Below are positions 41,530 through 48,169 of a stretch of DNA of 64,000 nucleotides, piece after piece. Under the pieces are notes generated by a model, which was not told the origin of the DNA, did no database searches, and saw only the letters and a list, made by a program, of their open reading frames with translations. The translations under genes and the position numbers were made by a program. Source of the DNA: Hydromonas duriensis (GTDB lineage Bacteria > Pseudomonadota > Gammaproteobacteria > Burkholderiales > Burkholderiaceae); the NCBI RefSeq assembly GCF_004363775.1, contig NZ_SNZE01000003.1, positions 1 to 64,000 on the forward strand, given 5' to 3'. Every line of letters begins with the position of its first letter. Positions within the stretch are counted from its first letter, which is position 1.

Positions 41530-42081
41530 ATGACACAGTCGCAACAGCCCCTTCACACCCCACATGACGAAACTGAACAACTCGACGCTAAGAGTGCTTT
41601 AAGCGTCGCTGGCGTTGCTTTTGGCTTGGCCGCTGCCCCATTGGTTTTATTGTATTTACTGGCGCAAGCGATTAACCCATCTACGGCAACGACAGGCGAA
41701 AATATGAGTGCCGCGGCTATTGCAGACCGCTTGCGTCCTGTTGCTGGTTTTGAGCTGGTTCCAGCGGTTAAGGGTCCGCAGACAGGCCAACAGGTTTTTG
41801 AAGGTTTGTGCACAAGCTGTCACACAGCGGGTACAAATGGCGCGCCTAAAATTGGTGCCAACGGTGATTGGGCGCCTCGCATTGGTAAGGGTTATGACAT
41901 GTTGTTTCAACATGCGGTGCAGGGTTTTAACCAAATGCCTGCTCGAGGAGGTAACCCTAAGTTATCAGACCTTGAGATTGGTCGAGCCATTGTGTACATG
42001 ACGGGCAAATCAGGCGGTCATTTCCCTGAGCCTGTTGATCCAGCTGCTAAAGGTGCAGCGGCTGACGCAACTAAGAAATGA
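41530..42081 (+). CDS. Membrane-anchored cytochrome c5-type protein
   Basis: A 183-residue c-type cytochrome. One N-terminal membrane helix (about residues 24-46) anchors it in the inner membrane with the haem domain in the periplasm. Haem is bound at CTSCH (94-98), and the likely axial methionine is M136 in NQMPARGG. A second conserved stretch, IGRAIVYMTGKSGG, closes the domain. This fits the c5/class I family that passes electrons from quinol oxidation to oxidases. The C-terminus is an Ala/Pro-rich tail. AGGAA precedes the ATG. Confidence 0.85.
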   Translation: MTQSQQPLHTPHDETEQLDAKSALSVAGVAFGLAAAPLVLLYLLAQAINPSTATTGENMSAAAIADRLRPVAGFELVPAVKGPQTGQQVFEGLCTSCHTAGTNGAPKIGANGDWAPRIGKGYDMLFQHAVQGFNQMPARGGNPKLSDLEIGRAIVYMTGKSGGHFPEPVDPAAKGAAADATKK

Positions 42082-42212
42082 TTTTTTACTTTATTTGCCT
42101 AACTAGGTAAAAATAACCATGCTTAAAGCGCAAATAAGTTGGATGAAAAACACAAATCTCTAAGTATTTTCCACAAAGCACTTGTTTTTTTTATCCATTT
42201 GTATTACATTAT

Positions 42213-42304
42213 GACCTAGGCGCAAGCCTCCCCCGCTTTTCCTCCCTAAGCGGGGTGGTCAGAAATGACGTTTAGCCTCAAGTTTTTAACTTGAGGCTTT
42301 TTTT
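42213..42304 (+). ncRNA. Candidate small RNA with CCUCC loop and terminator
   Basis: About 90 bases fold into three successive perfect hairpins. AGGC-GCAA-GCCT (42218-42229) has a GNRA tetraloop. CCCCGCTT pairs with AAGCGGGG (42231-42255) around the 9-nt loop TTCCTCCCT, which is complementary to Shine-Dalgarno sequences. AGCCTCAAGTT pairs with AACTTGAGGCT (42274-42298) and is followed by seven T, an intrinsic terminator. A promoter fits TTGTTT at 42182-42187, a 17-base spacer and TACATT at 42205-42210. The element lies after the cytochrome gene and before marR. It does not code for protein. Confidence 0.65.
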
Positions 42305-42405
42305 ATTTCAAAATGCACCATTGGTATTTGCATCAGTGACAAAGTCTCCTCGTGTCGCATTTTTGATTGGGCGAGGGTTAAAGAATAGACTAAGGTTTAT
42401 ATTAA

Positions 42406-42472: not shown

Positions 42473-43000
42473 ATGAACTCTAAAACCGAGAAAAAAGACT
42501 GTGTTTTTTCAGCCATCCCTAACGAGATGAAACCAGTGATTGCACTAATCAACCGAGCAGCACATGGCTGTACGGATTTGTTTAATAAACATTTGGCGCG
42601 AGTTAATTTGACTGTAAAAGGTTTTTTGATTTTGTGTGCCGCTTATAAAAATACGTCTTTTTCACAGTTAGATATCGCCAAAGGCCTATTGATTGACCGT
42701 AGTACAATGGTTAGTCTGGTAGACGCGTTAGAACAGCGTGGCTTGGTTGAGCGGGTGCGGCATGTAGAAGATAGGCGCCAATACCGTGTCGTGCTGACGC
42801 TAGAAGGTGAGCGTCTGTTTAAAGAGGCGCGCGAAATTGCGTATCAAACCGAAGATGAGTATTTGGCGGTGTTGTCGGACAAACAAAAATCTGATTTGAA
42901 GGCATCGCTGTTGTTGGTTTTGAATGCTCAAGCCGAAAAAGAGTCGCAACTCTCTCAAACAGCACCTTTATTGCTTGCTACTCAAACAACTGCTGAATAA
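42473..43000 (+). CDS. MarR-family repressor of efflux operon
   Basis: A 175-residue winged-helix regulator. The recognition region is FSQLDIAKGLLIDRSTMVSLVDALEQRGLV, written here as the helix FSQLDIAKGLLIDRS plus TMVSLVDALEQRG. The wing contains the MarR hallmark DRRQYRVVLT, and flanking helices form the dimer interface. As in EmrR/MarR systems, ligand binding would release it from the operator at 42418-42440. It is followed after 70 bases by the efflux genes, so it probably represses all of them. Confidence 0.85.
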   Translation: MNSKTEKKDCVFSAIPNEMKPVIALINRAAHGCTDLFNKHLARVNLTVKGFLILCAAYKNTSFSQLDIAKGLLIDRSTMVSLVDALEQRGLVERVRHVEDRRQYRVVLTLEGERLFKEAREIAYQTEDEYLAVLSDKQKSDLKASLLLVLNAQAEKESQLSQTAPLLLATQTTAE

Positions 43001-43070
43001 TCAAAATAAATGAGTGGTGCAAGTTTGTGTCCGATTAGGTGAATGGGTAACCCCTCCGTAAATTGAGTAA

Positions 43071-44552
43071 ATGATGGAAAAACAAAAAACAGGGCTAAAG
43101 CCGATTGTGAACAGTATCAGCCGAGCAGGCTTGATTGTGACGCTGACGGCACTCGGTTCGGGCTGTGCCATTGTCAGCGGTACGCATGAACCGCTCAAAC
43201 AAGTGTCTTTGAGTGAGCTCAAACTGCCAGAAGCCAGCGCGCAGGCGCGTGCGAATTGGCCGAAAAATGGCTGGTGGCGGCAATATCAAGATGAGCAGCT
43301 CAATGCCCTAATTGAGCAGGCGTTTGCAGGTTCGCCGAACTTACAGGTGCTCGCAACTCGAGTGGAAAGCGCACAAGTTGCGGCCGATGCGGTTAAAAAA
43401 CTGTCGTATCCATCGGGCGGTATTCGATTGGCGCCGATGGGGCAAACCTATTCTGAAAATTATATTTACCCACCCGCTTTAGGTGGCGAGTGGAAATATT
43501 CAGGTGTGGTGGCCGCCTCATTGTCGTGGGACTTGGACTTGTGGGGGCGCAAGCGTTCGCAATATCGCGCGGCATTGGGTCAAGCCGCTGCGGCCGACCT
43601 CGAATACGAGGCGGCGCGACAAACCATCGCTGCAAATATTATTGGATTGCATGCGCAACTGGCGGCGCTTGATGGTCGCTTAAAATTGTTGTCCTCGCAA
43701 ATTGACTTACAAAACACCAATAAAATGCGCTGGTCTGAACGTGAGCGAGCTGGCTTGCAGCCTGTGCAAGCCAGTGTGCAAATTGACAGCGTGATTGCTC
43801 AACTTGAACAACTGCGCGGCACATTTGTCGCGCAACGAGAAATTTTAATGGCACAACTGGCCGCTTTAGTTGGTACAACCCCTGCTCAATTGCCTCATGT
43901 CGCAATGCCGAATCGCTGGCTTGGGTTAAGTCTACCCAATGAGCTGCCTGCCGACATTTTGGGTGCGCGCCCAGACATCGCCGCTGCGCGTCATTACATC
44001 ATCGCCGCCAGTGAGAATGTTGATGCCGTACGAAAAGAGTTTTATCCGAACATTAATTTGAGCGTATCAGCGGGTTTTCAGGCGATTGGGTTAAATAATT
44101 TATTTAAAGCGGGCAGTCGTTTTGATACGGTAGAGCCAGCCATTACGCTGCCGATTTTTAGTGGTGCGGCTTTAAATGCAAAATTGCGAAACCAGCAGGC
44201 CGTGCTGGACTCAACCATCGCGCAATATAATCAGACGGTATACCAAGCGATTTCGGATGCAGGGCAACAATTGGCGAGTTATCGCAATACAGCCACGCAA
44301 ATCACGCAGCAGATACGCCTCGTAAACGATAACGAACACTTGGCGCAGTTGTCACAGTCGCGCTACGCACAAGGCATTGCGCCACAAATGGAAAGCCTCG
44401 TGGCGCAAGCCAGCGTGCTGAGTGCGCAAGACACATTGATTGCCCAATATGCCGCTCGTCGCGCCCAAGAGGCCAAGCTCGCCGTTAGTCTTGGCACAGG
44501 GTTTGAAGGCTTGTGGGGCGAAAGCAAGCAGAGCGTAACGCCGCAACAATAA
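43071..44552 (+). CDS. Outer-membrane efflux factor (NodT/OprM type)
   Basis: A 493-residue TolC-like lipoprotein forming the outer-membrane channel of a tripartite pump. The signal region ends ALGSGC, a lipobox-like site with C32. The paired OEP domains show WWRQYQDEQLNALIEQA, LSWDLDLWGRKRSQYRAA and, in the second repeat, LGARPDIAAARHYIIAASEN with FYPNINLSVSAGF. Long coiled helices lie between the beta strands. It is the first structural gene after marR. Confidence 0.9.
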   Translation: MMEKQKTGLKPIVNSISRAGLIVTLTALGSGCAIVSGTHEPLKQVSLSELKLPEASAQARANWPKNGWWRQYQDEQLNALIEQAFAGSPNLQVLATRVESAQVAADAVKKLSYPSGGIRLAPMGQTYSENYIYPPALGGEWKYSGVVAASLSWDLDLWGRKRSQYRAALGQAAAADLEYEAARQTIAANIIGLHAQLAALDGRLKLLSSQIDLQNTNKMRWSERERAGLQPVQASVQIDSVIAQLEQLRGTFVAQREILMAQLAALVGTTPAQLPHVAMPNRWLGLSLPNELPADILGARPDIAAARHYIIAASENVDAVRKEFYPNINLSVSAGFQAIGLNNLFKAGSRFDTVEPAITLPIFSGAALNAKLRNQQAVLDSTIAQYNQTVYQAISDAGQQLASYRNTATQITQQIRLVNDNEHLAQLSQSRYAQGIAPQMESLVAQASVLSAQDTLIAQYAARRAQEAKLAVSLGTGFEGLWGESKQSVTPQQ

Positions 44553-44603
44553 CGAATCGTTTAAACATTTGAAGTTAAAGACACAGATTAAACAAGGAAC
44601 ATC

Positions 44604-45836
44604 ATGAGTACAGAGCACAATAATGATGCTGCGCAGACAGAAGTGACCCAACCTGCAACCGTCAGCGTGATACCGAAAGACCAAAACACCGACAATAGCG
44701 AGAATGAGCGCACGCGCAAACGCAAAATGTTGCTCATCGGCGGCTTGTTTTTGCTGGCGGGTTTAGCTTGGTTGGCGTATTACTTTGTTGTCTTGCGTTA
44801 TGAAGAAGAAACAGACAACGCGTATGTGAACGGAAATATCGTTGCCATCAATGCCCAAACAGGCGGCACGGTTGAAGCGATTTTAGCCGATGAAAATCAA
44901 GAGGTGCATGCAGGCCAGCCGCTGGTCAAGTTAAGCCCAACCGATGCAGAAGTGGCGTTATCACAAGCGCGCGCTCAGTTGTCGCAAACGGTGCGCCAAA
45001 TTCAACAAAGCTTTAATAACGCCAATGTCGCTGATGCTCAATTATTCCAAGCGCGTGTGAATTTAAAAACAGCACAAGATGCCGTCAACCGCCGTGCGCC
45101 GCTGGTCAAAACGGGTGCGGTGAGCAAAGAAGAATTTGCTCAAGCGCAAGATACCCTAGCTCGAGCGCAAGCCGCTCTCGGCGTGGCGCAGGCCCAACGC
45201 AGTACAGCCGTGGCGCAGGTTGCAGGCACAACCATTGCCAATCATCCCGTGATTGAAGCGGCTAAAGCCAGCTTCCGCACCGCCTACATCAACAACAAGC
45301 GACTTGCGGTGCTGGCGCCCATGGATGGTTTTGTCGCCAAACGCTATGTGCAAGTCGGGCAACAAATTTCACCAGGCACGCCACTCATGAACCTTGTTGC
45401 GGCGAATCAAGTCTGGGTCGATGCCAACTTTAAAGAAACGCAATTGGCCAATTTGCGCGTCGGTCAGCCTGTGACCATCAAATCGGACATGTATGGCAGC
45501 CGAGTGACTTTTGACGGTGAAGTGCAAGGCATCGCAATTGGCACTGGCTCTGCATTCTCAGTGTTGCCCGCACAAAACGCCACGGGCAACTGGATTAAGA
45601 TTGTGCAGCGAGTACCTGTGCGCATATTGCTCAAATCAGAGCAGTTGGCAAAAACGCCTTTGCGGGTAGGCATGTCAATGATTGCTCGTGTGGATACGCA
45701 TAAACGCGATGGTGCGGTTTTGGGCGCGGTGAATGGCATGGCCGCTCCTGAAAATCTGCAAACCACGGTGTACCAGTCAGACGAAGTGGAAGCCAATGCA
45801 GAAGCGGACAAAATTATTAAGAGCAATTTGCATTAA
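44604..45836 (+). CDS. emrA: Periplasmic adaptor, EmrA/HlyD family
   Basis: A 410-residue membrane-fusion protein. One N-terminal membrane helix (about 42-63) is followed by the lipoyl half YVNGNIVAINAQTGGTVEAI, a coiled-coil hairpin of about 90 residues, and the second lipoyl half LAPMDGFVAKRYVQVGQQIS. The C-terminal beta-barrel region carries ANFKETQLANLRVGQPV. It would bridge the MFS pump and the outer-membrane channel. AAGGAA precedes the ATG. Confidence 0.9.
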   Translation: MSTEHNNDAAQTEVTQPATVSVIPKDQNTDNSENERTRKRKMLLIGGLFLLAGLAWLAYYFVVLRYEEETDNAYVNGNIVAINAQTGGTVEAILADENQEVHAGQPLVKLSPTDAEVALSQARAQLSQTVRQIQQSFNNANVADAQLFQARVNLKTAQDAVNRRAPLVKTGAVSKEEFAQAQDTLARAQAALGVAQAQRSTAVAQVAGTTIANHPVIEAAKASFRTAYINNKRLAVLAPMDGFVAKRYVQVGQQISPGTPLMNLVAANQVWVDANFKETQLANLRVGQPVTIKSDMYGSRVTFDGEVQGIAIGTGSAFSVLPAQNATGNWIKIVQRVPVRILLKSEQLAKTPLRVGMSMIARVDTHKRDGAVLGAVNGMAAPENLQTTVYQSDEVEANAEADKIIKSNLH

Positions 45837-45911
45837 GTTGCTTTAAGGCGAGCCAACACGGATTGATATGAATGCAGGTCAACCCACTGTTTGAACAAAA
45901 AAGAATAGCGT

Positions 45912-46574
45912 ATGTCGATAAAACCACAAAAAGTAGCTTTGATTGTAGGCGCCACAGGCTTGGTTGGGCGACTCTTGCTCAACCGTCTGCTTGAATCGGA
46001 CACTTATGGGCAAGTCATTGTACTAACCCGACGTGAGCTGGGGCGCACACACCCCAAGCTGATAGAATTTAAAGTGGATTTTGACGCTTTACCCACGTTG
46101 GGCATACCTGTTGACGACGTGTTCTGTAGCTTGGGTACAACGATTAAGGCGGCGGGTTCACAAGAGGCTTTTTATCAAGTGGACTGCGTGTATCCGCATG
46201 CTGTGGCTAAGTGGGCACAAAAACACGGCGCTCGGCAGGTTCTGATGGTGACTGCGCTGGGTGCGTCGGTCACATCGAATGTGTTTTACAACCGCGTCAA
46301 AGGTGAAGTTGAACGAAAAGTGATTGCGCTCAAACTCCCAACCACAGTCATCGTCCGACCCTCGTTGATTTTGGGCGAGCGACAAGAGCGTCGGGTCATG
46401 GAGCGTTTAGCACAATCGCTCGCGCCATTGCTCAATCGCTTCTTGATTGGCCCGCTCAAAAAATATCAAGCCATACACGCGGAGCAAGTGGCGCGTGCTT
46501 TAGTGTCTTTGGCGCAAAAAAATTATTATGGCGTGCGCATCGTTGAATCCGATGTGCTGCGCATCCTTAAATAA
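45912..46574 (+). CDS. NAD(P)-binding Rossmann oxidoreductase (TIP30-like)
   Basis: A 220-residue atypical SDR. The dinucleotide-binding GATGLVG is at residues 13-19 and FCSLGTTIKAAGSQEAFYQV and ALGASVTSNVFYNRVKGEVE follow, the latter with the Y-x-x-x-K pair. This resembles the bacterial relatives of TIP30/HTATIP2. Its placement between emrA and emrB, with gaps of 75 and 8 bases, is unusual for an efflux operon and suggests that it may modify or reduce the exported compound; this is inference only. Confidence 0.75.
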   Translation: MSIKPQKVALIVGATGLVGRLLLNRLLESDTYGQVIVLTRRELGRTHPKLIEFKVDFDALPTLGIPVDDVFCSLGTTIKAAGSQEAFYQVDCVYPHAVAKWAQKHGARQVLMVTALGASVTSNVFYNRVKGEVERKVIALKLPTTVIVRPSLILGERQERRVMERLAQSLAPLLNRFLIGPLKKYQAIHAEQVARALVSLAQKNYYGVRIVESDVLRILK

Positions 46575-46582
46575 AGAAAAAA

Positions 46583-48169
46583 ATGAGTTCTGTCACCACG
46601 GTCGATTCGATTGAGTCAAACGGCACTGAAAGCAAGGAGCGCGTCGAGCTTCCTCCACTCAAAGGCGCGGCGCTTGCCATGCTCACGGTTGCCACAGCAT
46701 TGGCGACTTTTATGGAGGTGTTGGACACCACGATTGCCAATGTCGCCGTCCCAACGATAGCGGGTTCGATGGGGGTTTCTGCCAATGAAGGCACGTCCAT
46801 TATCAGCTCGTATTCGCTTGCTGCGGCAATCGCGGTGCCATTGACGGGCTGGTTGTCGCGTCGCGTTGGCGAAGTGCGCTTGTTAATCTTGTCGGTTACT
46901 TTATTTACGCTGTTCTCGGTATTGTGCGGTTTGGCGACGAATTACAATATGCTGGTCGCTTTTCGACTGATGCAAGGCTTGGTGTCAGGCCCAATGGTTC
47001 CGCTGGGTCAGGCCATTATGATGAACAGCTATCCACCCGCCAAGCGTGGAATGGCAATGGCATTTTGGGCCATGACGGTGGTCATTGCGCCTGTGGTCGG
47101 CCCCGTGATGGGCGGGTACATCACCGAGAATTTCTCGTGGCCGTGGATTTTTTACATCAACGTCCCGATTGGCGCATTTTGTGTGTATAGCATATCCACC
47201 CTGCTCAAGGGGCGTGACACGGAAGTGTCATACGAACCGATTGATGCCTTGGGCTTGGTCTTTCTGGTGCTGGGTGTTGGCTCGTTGCAATACATGCTTG
47301 AGCATGCGAACGACTTGGGTTGGTTTCAGTCCAATGAGGTTGTGACCTTAAGCATCATCGCTGTGATTGGATTGACTTTTCTTGTGGTTTGGGAATGGTA
47401 CGATAAGCATCCTGTGGTGGATGTGCGGCTGATTAAAAACCGTAATTTCGCCATCGGCACAGCCTTGCAAACCATTGGTTTTACTGTGTTTTTCGGCAAT
47501 ATGGTGGTGATGCCGCTGTGGTTGCAAACGGTCATGGGCTACGACTCTTTTCACTCAGGCTTGGCGGTGTCGCCTGTGGCGATGTTCTCGATATTTTTCT
47601 CGCCCGTGATTGGCATGAATATGCATAAGGTGGATTTACGCTACTTGGTGCTGACAGGGTTTGGTTTGTTTGCATTTGGCGCGTGGTACAGCAGCTTGTT
47701 GACGCCCGATGCCTCCATGAATCAAATCATGCTGGGACGCTTCTTGTTCGGTTTGGGAATCCCCTTCTTCTTCATCCCTTTGTCAGGCATCATCATGCAA
47801 GGCTTGGAAGGCGAGGCCATCACGGCGGCCGCAGGTTTTTCAAATTTCTTGCGCACCTTGGGTGGGGCGATTGGTACGGCGGTATTCGTGACGCTGTGGT
47901 CACGTCGCACCACCTTTCACCATGCGCGGTTGGTTGAGGATTTGCATCCAGGCAACCCGATGTACGACCAATACATGCTGCAGTTGACGCAGCGCGGTTT
48001 AAACGAGGCGCAAAGGTATAACGCACTCAATGGCATTGTCAATCAACAAGCGGGCACCATGGCGACTTTAGATGTGTTGTACCTCACCGCAGGCCTATTT
48101 GTCATGCTCATGTTCTGTGTGTTTTTGGCGAAACCCGTGAAAGGCGCGGTAGCGTCAGGCGGTCATTAA
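46583..48169 (+). CDS. emrB: MFS drug efflux pump, EmrB/DHA2 family
   Basis: A 528-residue inner-membrane transporter with 14 hydrophobic segments. The DHA2 motif is FMEVLDTTIANVAVPTIAG in the first helix, and the loop 2-3 motif is GWLSRRVGEVRLL. Motif C lies near PVVGPVMGGYITENFSWPW, written here as the segment APVVGPVMGGYITE. It exports drugs or hydrophobic acids using the proton gradient through EmrA and the outer-membrane factor. It starts 8 bases after the oxidoreductase gene. Confidence 0.92.
   Translation: MSSVTTVDSIESNGTESKERVELPPLKGAALAMLTVATALATFMEVLDTTIANVAVPTIAGSMGVSANEGTSIISSYSLAAAIAVPLTGWLSRRVGEVRLLILSVTLFTLFSVLCGLATNYNMLVAFRLMQGLVSGPMVPLGQAIMMNSYPPAKRGMAMAFWAMTVVIAPVVGPVMGGYITENFSWPWIFYINVPIGAFCVYSISTLLKGRDTEVSYEPIDALGLVFLVLGVGSLQYMLEHANDLGWFQSNEVVTLSIIAVIGLTFLVVWEWYDKHPVVDVRLIKNRNFAIGTALQTIGFTVFFGNMVVMPLWLQTVMGYDSFHSGLAVSPVAMFSIFFSPVIGMNMHKVDLRYLVLTGFGLFAFGAWYSSLLTPDASMNQIMLGRFLFGLGIPFFFIPLSGIIMQGLEGEAITAAAGFSNFLRTLGGAIGTAVFVTLWSRRTTFHHARLVEDLHPGNPMYDQYMLQLTQRGLNEAQRYNALNGIVNQQAGTMATLDVLYLTAGLFVMLMFCVFLAKPVKGAVASGGH

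Follow-up and report, generated by a model that had tools for sequence, protein, structure and literature searches.

The closest described relatives of the RNA analyzed here belong to the anti-hemB family (Rfam RF02837), whose member in Burkholderia cenocepacia, ncS04, is described as a 105-nt RNA detected by Northern blot (PMC5688073). This RNA is reported to have co-purified with Hfq in B. cenocepacia (PMC4603805; likewise PMC5688073), and the available part of the latter report describes no significant change by qPCR across seven conditions, so a stress role in B. cenocepacia is not supported. The accessible text of a review gives hemB as a predicted target of Bc7, an RNA from an Hfq co-purification set (PMC6321483). 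Judging from the Rfam description 'Burkholderia RNA 7 (anti-hemB)', Bc7 is probably anti-hemB itself. We found neither a function for RF02837 nor its accession in the literature searched, which omits most subscription journals.

Other small RNAs offer partial likenesses. RybB and MicA, which are sigma-E-dependent RNAs of enteric bacteria, pair by their single-stranded 5' ends. SmelA075 and SmelA099 of the Rhizobiales are what we take to be the 'cuckoo RNAs'. The accessible text of their report describes the anti-Shine-Dalgarno sequence CCUCCUCCC in hairpin loops over variable stems (PMC3927594). The 'toxic' double-hairpin RNAs of RF02278 (ncS27 and ncS03) and S17 of Bordetella pertussis resemble our RNA in their C/U-rich unpaired stretches. 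Those of the RF02278 RNAs are predicted to cover ribosome-binding sites (excerpts of PMC5688073). For S17, the available text reports single-stranded sites, one target directly repressed according to a reporter, and matching sites in 70 of the 92 up-regulated genes (PMC11722255). By analogy, S17 is the nearest experimental parallel to the RNA described here.

We analyzed a stretch of 64,000 nt from Hydromonas duriensis (contig NZ_SNZE01000003.1, positions 1 to 64,000 of the forward strand), hereafter the window. It contains an RNA that matches RF02837 over the full length of the model (cmscan, 52.2 bits for a cut-off of 49.5; E = 2.6e-9 for the 64-kb window) and that shares with ncS04, and probably Bc7, the anti-Shine-Dalgarno loop and the terminator. 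The CUCC-loop hairpin, the second hairpin and the intrinsic terminator of the family are all present. RF02837 is the sole family above cut-off in the window, and this copy is the only one above cut-off in its genome. The original prediction had proposed that the RNA is structured and carries an anti-Shine-Dalgarno loop, and the structure, the family match and the conservation all support this; it had also considered the RNA impossible to assign to a named family, which is wrong given the RF02837 match. The locus is a conserved and probably functional small RNA in a known but functionally blank family.

The RF02278 model is shorter than that of RF02837 (64 and 81 positions, respectively), and the RNA is not among the three RF02278 matches of its genome at E ≤ 0.1 (cut-off of 50 bits). 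The anti-hemB copies of its congeners score at most 28.4 bits against the same model and cut-off. A separate member of RF02278 is present in the genome (G000:C4:88172-88235, + strand; 57.2 bits for a cut-off of 50); this double-hairpin RNA (L070, about 1173-1236) holds CUCCUCCACCCUCC and the downstream ORF reads like ribosomal protein L13. Eight copies of RF02278 over cut-off were found in another genome (G043). The CCUCCUCCC-loop RNAs of Rhizobiales carry three or four such loops whereas the RNA of the window has a single UUCCUCCCU loop, and it falls outside that group as defined in the accessible text of PMC3927594.

RF02837 was found over cut-off in 41 of 61 genomes (the window's own included) and in 112 of 160 genomes drawn from the order. 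No match above cut-off was found in 14 control genomes, of which 11 and 6 gave weak matches at laxer thresholds. The locus counts given below leave out the weaker matches L051-L056 as well as the under-cut-off matches of the order-level scan, except L049. The order and family labels (Burkholderiales and Burkholderiaceae) follow the NCBI lineage of Formosimonas and may misfit the grouping in some genomes. We took the genus of the window as Hydromonas/Formosimonas, and the seven copies from this genus and one sister genus are referred to as genus/sister copies. Two genomes (G112 and G068) present three RF02837 copies over cut-off each, two of them in tandem. The features of the locus are the following:

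41530-42081, + strand: c-type cytochrome gene, conserved upstream neighbour (Pfam Cytochrome_CBB3 and Cytochrom_C)
42182-42187, + strand: putative -35 box TTGTTT (sequence; boxes at the same place in 7/7 genus/sister copies, the best being TTGACA)
42205-42210, + strand: putative -10 box TACATT after a 17-nt spacer (sequence and relatives)
42218-42304, + strand: predicted transcript of about 87 nt (promoter position, terminator and fold)
42218-42229, + strand: hairpin 1, AGGC-GCAA-GCCT, outside the Rfam model (fold and structural conservation in relatives)
42229-42304, + strand: Rfam RF02837 (anti-hemB) match, model positions 1-81 of 81
42231-42255, + strand: hairpin 2 with the 9-nt loop UUCCUCCCU at 42239-42247 (fold, Rfam match and 7-copy alignment)
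42258-42269, + strand: hairpin 3, GTCA-GAAA-TGAC (as RNA GUCA-GAAA-UGAC), second stem of RF02837 (fold and 7-copy alignment)
42274-42304, + strand: intrinsic terminator with an 11-bp stem (42274-42298), a 3-nt loop and seven T (42298-42304)
42473-43000, + strand: MarR-family regulator gene, downstream neighbour (Pfam MarR)

Fold and conservation of the hairpins

The sequence 42218-42304 folds into exactly four hairpins, the MFE and centroid structures being the same (-38.8 kcal/mol), and none of 200 shuffled sequences was equally stable (z = -5.3). Hairpin 2 is CCCCGCTT-TTCCTCCCT-AAGCGGGG as DNA, an 8-bp stem with a 9-nt loop, and CCCCGCUU-UUCCUCCCU-AAGCGGGG as RNA. Three hairpins had been described originally, one with a GCAA tetraloop, one with a 9-nt loop and one forming a terminator with seven T. 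All three were found in the sequence and in the fold, and a fourth at 42258-42269 had been overlooked. The longer stretch delimited at that time was also folded (z = -7.4; 0/200 shuffles) and gains an outer helix of the GACCU/GGUC type. We dropped this helix because the predicted +1 falls downstream of its 5' strand; the fold from +1 gives hairpin 3 instead. As to coding potential, six ORFs of at least 20 aa overlap 42170-42320: four of them (21-43 aa) reach an end of the transcript, and not one of the six covers its whole length.

The Rfam match begins at 42229, where hairpin 1 ends; relative to the model, the RNA of the window is therefore preceded by an additional 5' hairpin, and its relatives have this hairpin too. 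Hairpin 1 varies in length and MAFFT sets it out of register, as does a second alignment; for this reason we used an alignment-free stability test and an ungapped subset of copies. From the MAFFT alignment, which held all 43 loci of the first genome scans but L034, thus 42 loci, RNAalifold recovered stem 2 only, with five pairs.

The stability test covered 127 of 138 loci, which comprise 43 loci from the first genome scans and 95 from the order-level scan, some genomes contributing more than one; eight loci lacked the anchor motif and three were duplicates or too close to an end. A 25-nt stretch whose last position is the first base of hairpin 2 folded more stably than its shuffles (≤ 0.05) in 73/127 loci, against 7/127 for a control stretch of equal length located 26 nt further upstream (P = 3e-19; Wilcoxon test, which is no true probability because the sequences are related). 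This difference was also observed outside the window's family (66/104 and 4/104, respectively) and in the genus and its sister genus (3/7 and 0/7). In the remainder of the window's family, hairpin 1 was barely above the control (4/16 and 3/16). An earlier run on 43 loci had given 19 and 2.

In the ungapped subset (22 copies, 20 distinct), all six pairs of hairpin 1 changed on both sides and 98.3% of the cells were paired, a value that leans towards structure because the rows were picked by a called hairpin 1 of one span (L046 was left out of 23); the 127-locus stability test is the unselected one. The joint covariation score of hairpins 1 and 2 in the 22 copies was 0.506, relative to 0.254 when shuffled, and none of 500 shuffles reached it. 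Among the seven genus/sister copies, three pairs of stem 2 show two-sided changes, under a loop UUCCUCCCU that does not vary. Pairing in these copies reaches 100% for stems 2 and 3, 92.6% for hairpin 1 and 84.1% for the terminator. Four measures computed on this alignment exceeded all 500 shuffles, and a further one, the number of further pair types, did not (13 for a shuffled mean of 15.0; reached by 497/500 shuffles).

The original prediction staked itself on stems conserved in relatives, and the stems are kept. The part of the RNA that does the conserved work seems to be hairpin 2, and hairpin 1 looks conserved mainly as a shape. These results suggest that the RF02837 model is cut short and leaves out a conserved 5' hairpin; the structural conservation of this hairpin, compensatory changes included, is a new fact. 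A second C/U-rich stretch (UCCCC) was seen in the terminator loop of several copies outside the window's family (L013, L015, L017, L021, L024-L027 and L038-L040); the rows of the window's family in the 42-locus alignment do not present it.

Genomic location and promoters

We further analyzed the neighbourhood of the RNA in 43 loci, corresponding to all 41 genomes over cut-off plus the weaker matches L049 and L050. Outside the genus/sister group, the RNA is beside ysxC in 35/36 loci, and in 30/36 hemB flanks its other side, with the RNA on the opposite strand. This location next to hemB is usual for RF02837, without being part of the model, and the RNA of the window departs from it: hemB is on the same contig, but at a distance of about 81 kb. 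No hemB match was found in the 64-kb window or in the RNA-bearing stretches (8-10 kb) of four congeners. The ysxC gene of the window's genome lies on a different contig, where it still has a cytochrome c4-like gene as a neighbour. In all seven genus/sister copies, a cytochrome c gene lies upstream of the RNA on the same strand; from a reading of its sequence, the one in the window (41530-42081) may be called cytochrome c5-like. The MarR gene is an inconstant neighbour, found beside the RNA in 3/7 of these copies (L001, L045 and L046). In the window, it is followed on the + strand by genes resembling an outer-membrane efflux channel, a membrane-fusion protein and an EmrB-like transporter (42473-48169 in total), all but MarR being read from ORFs.

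The promoter of the window (TTGTTT-17-TACATT) presents 7/12 matches, which alone is no better than chance (P = 0.64), and it does not appear in our consensus scan list (threshold of 9/12). Sigma-70-like boxes stand 6-7 nt upstream of hairpin 1 in all seven genus/sister copies (12, 10, 9, 9, 7, 7 and 7 of 12), with a combined P of 9e-6, the three weakest, the window's included, being singly at chance level. For the shuffles as for the real sequences, the search considered boxes at 4-11 nt upstream of hairpin 1. On its own, the plausible promoter claimed originally is indistinguishable from chance; its support comes from relatives whose boxes at this position are better.

The 90 nt upstream of the RNA contain the expression.GAACT[AT]-N15-17-TC in 79/115 loci outside the window's family (88/115 in a relaxed form), against 11/6337 control windows of the same loci (29/6337 when relaxed). 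It was also found upstream of 14/16 rpoE genes examined outside the window's family; because we wrote it after viewing GGAACTT-like boxes before both the RNA and rpoE, these two sets are not independent and the fit is not blind; the control windows are blind. Sigma-E autoregulation is known for E. coli, and the motif before rpoE is as expected. The motif had first been scored on the RNA loci and rpoE regions with a sigma-E consensus, and this stricter scan of 14 rpoE regions recovered 5/10 outside the window's family and 0/4 inside. The expression was detected before the RNA in none of the seven genus/sister copies and in 1/16 other copies of the window's family, where it is off-spacing. These other copies present TATGAT/TATCAT-like -10 regions, some of them preceded by a GAACTTT-like stretch.

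In 74 loci, a sigma-E-type box is present and a hairpin 1 was called; the end of the five-base box stands 5-6 nt before the first paired base of the hairpin in 72 of them, and this base is A or G in 73. Such spacing probably places +1 on the first base of hairpin 1 or immediately beside it. Judging from these motifs, sigma-E, a sigma factor of envelope stress, seems to drive the RNA in the majority of the copies sampled outside the window's family, whereas the RNA of the window has a sigma-70-like promoter. The relatives outside the family thereby share with RybB and MicA a sigma-E-type promoter at the right distance. In contrast to RybB and MicA, the RNA of the window lacks such a promoter and would pair by a stem-loop, not by a single-stranded 5' end.

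Distribution of rpoE and of the RNA

The gene rpoE was found over cut-off in 43 of the 61 genomes and in 35 of the 41 genomes with the RNA over cut-off. The six RNA-bearing genomes without rpoE (G000, G001, G002, G003, G005 and G026) are exactly those in which the RNA has moved. Another genome of the genus, G004, whose RNA is under cut-off, likewise has no rpoE, and rpoE was over cut-off in none of the seven genus/sister genomes. An assembly gap is unlikely to explain this absence since G005 consists of one contig with 100% completeness. RseB is also absent from the seven genomes, which is weaker evidence because it is absent from 6/13 other genomes searched. Eight of the 20 genomes without an over-cut-off RNA have rpoE (G009, G011, G012, G020, G032, G037, G039 and G054), indicating that sigma-E does not imply the RNA. 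Ten genomes present neither rpoE nor the RNA over cut-off (G008, G010, G013, G015, G017, G019, G031, G033, G045 and G055); they fit a link between the two, although several are strongly reduced.

The loss of rpoE, the move of the RNA and the change of promoter were probably one evolutionary event; their coincidence is suggestive, not proven. The window's family otherwise keeps rpoE and mostly lacks the sigma-E-type box, so that the promoter change may predate the loss of rpoE. Both the move of the RNA and the sigma-E-type promoter of its relatives are new relative to what is known, and we found no report of either in the literature searched, most subscription journals being outside it.

Proposed mechanism and competing explanations

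Given the observed family, anatomy, conservation, synteny, promoter motifs and absence of rpoE matches, we consider it likely that the locus encodes a small RNA of the anti-hemB family (RF02837) that is transcribed on its own and acts in trans. Its transcription would begin on the first base of hairpin 1 or beside it; standing at the 5' end, this hairpin would leave the RNA without a single-stranded 5' tail and would probably protect it. By pairing of its invariant C/U-rich loop, hairpin 2 would cover the Shine-Dalgarno region of mRNAs and prevent them from being translated. Hairpin 3 would serve as a spacer and the fourth hairpin would terminate transcription. Hfq, whose gene is present in the window's genome, would presumably be held by the U-tail of the terminator. 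Most sampled copies outside the window's family would be driven by sigma-E and those of the genus, apart from hemB, by a sigma-70-like promoter.

CCUCC is the core of the 16S anti-Shine-Dalgarno sequence; with this core in its loop, the RNA can compete for ribosome-binding sites. We searched for strict sites of the form GGGAGGA-N3-9-ATG and found 11 in the window's genome, relative to 2 for a reversed-pattern control. The same search in four congeners (G001, G002, G003 and G005) yielded 6, 13, 0 and 9 sites (controls: 3, 0, 1 and 4, respectively). Among the downstream ORFs of at least 40 aa, no target at these strict sites was common to the window's genome and these congeners; one protein pair (L241/L249) recurs between two congeners and is not found in the window's genome.

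The lack of a conserved target among strict sites is what one would expect if the hairpins were only a stable transcription terminator region with no function in trans. We regard this as quite improbable: the loop is unchanged above covarying stems, the RNA occurs in many families of the order, and the available text on B. cenocepacia describes a free-standing expressed transcript (PMC5688073). The RNA could also arise by processing from the 3' UTR of the cytochrome c mRNA, instead of being an independent gene, and act on respiration, considering that it follows this gene on the same strand in all seven genus/sister copies and that no terminator-like site was found between the two in the window. 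However, the sigma-70-like boxes stand just before hairpin 1 in the same seven copies, and the cytochrome gene was not matched beside the RNA in the 36 loci outside the genus/sister group, which makes this origin unlikely, if less so than a bare terminator.

The family name hints at a third possibility, a cis antisense to hemB, which agrees with the opposite-strand position of the RNA between hemB and ysxC in most loci outside the genus/sister group and with the prediction of hemB as a target of Bc7 in the accessible text of the review (PMC6321483). In the window's genome, however, there is no over-cut-off RNA copy at hemB, some 81 kb off on the same contig, and hemB was unmatched in the window and in the RNA-bearing stretches of the four congeners. 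A role in cis at hemB is already refuted for the genus Hydromonas/Formosimonas, and we consider antisense to hemB highly improbable as an account of this RNA. Since the RNA persists away from hemB, a purely cis-antisense role is unlikely to be its conserved job.

A fuller version of the trans-acting reading is more tentative, and we rate it somewhat below even. The anti-hemB RNA may be the sigma-E small RNA of Betaproteobacteria, made under envelope stress and silencing ribosome-binding sites through its CCUCC loop. Hydromonas/Formosimonas may have lost sigma-E (rpoE and rseB) and re-homed the RNA behind a cytochrome c gene under a housekeeping promoter, where a silencer once induced by stress would now be constitutive or linked to respiration.

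The sigma-E-type promoter found in most copies outside the window's family provides a testable role for the functionally blank family RF02837. The genus of the window constitutes a natural experiment in which the RNA survives without hemB as its neighbour and without sigma-E. This survival indicates that the conserved work of the RNA should be carried out in trans and should be separable from both.
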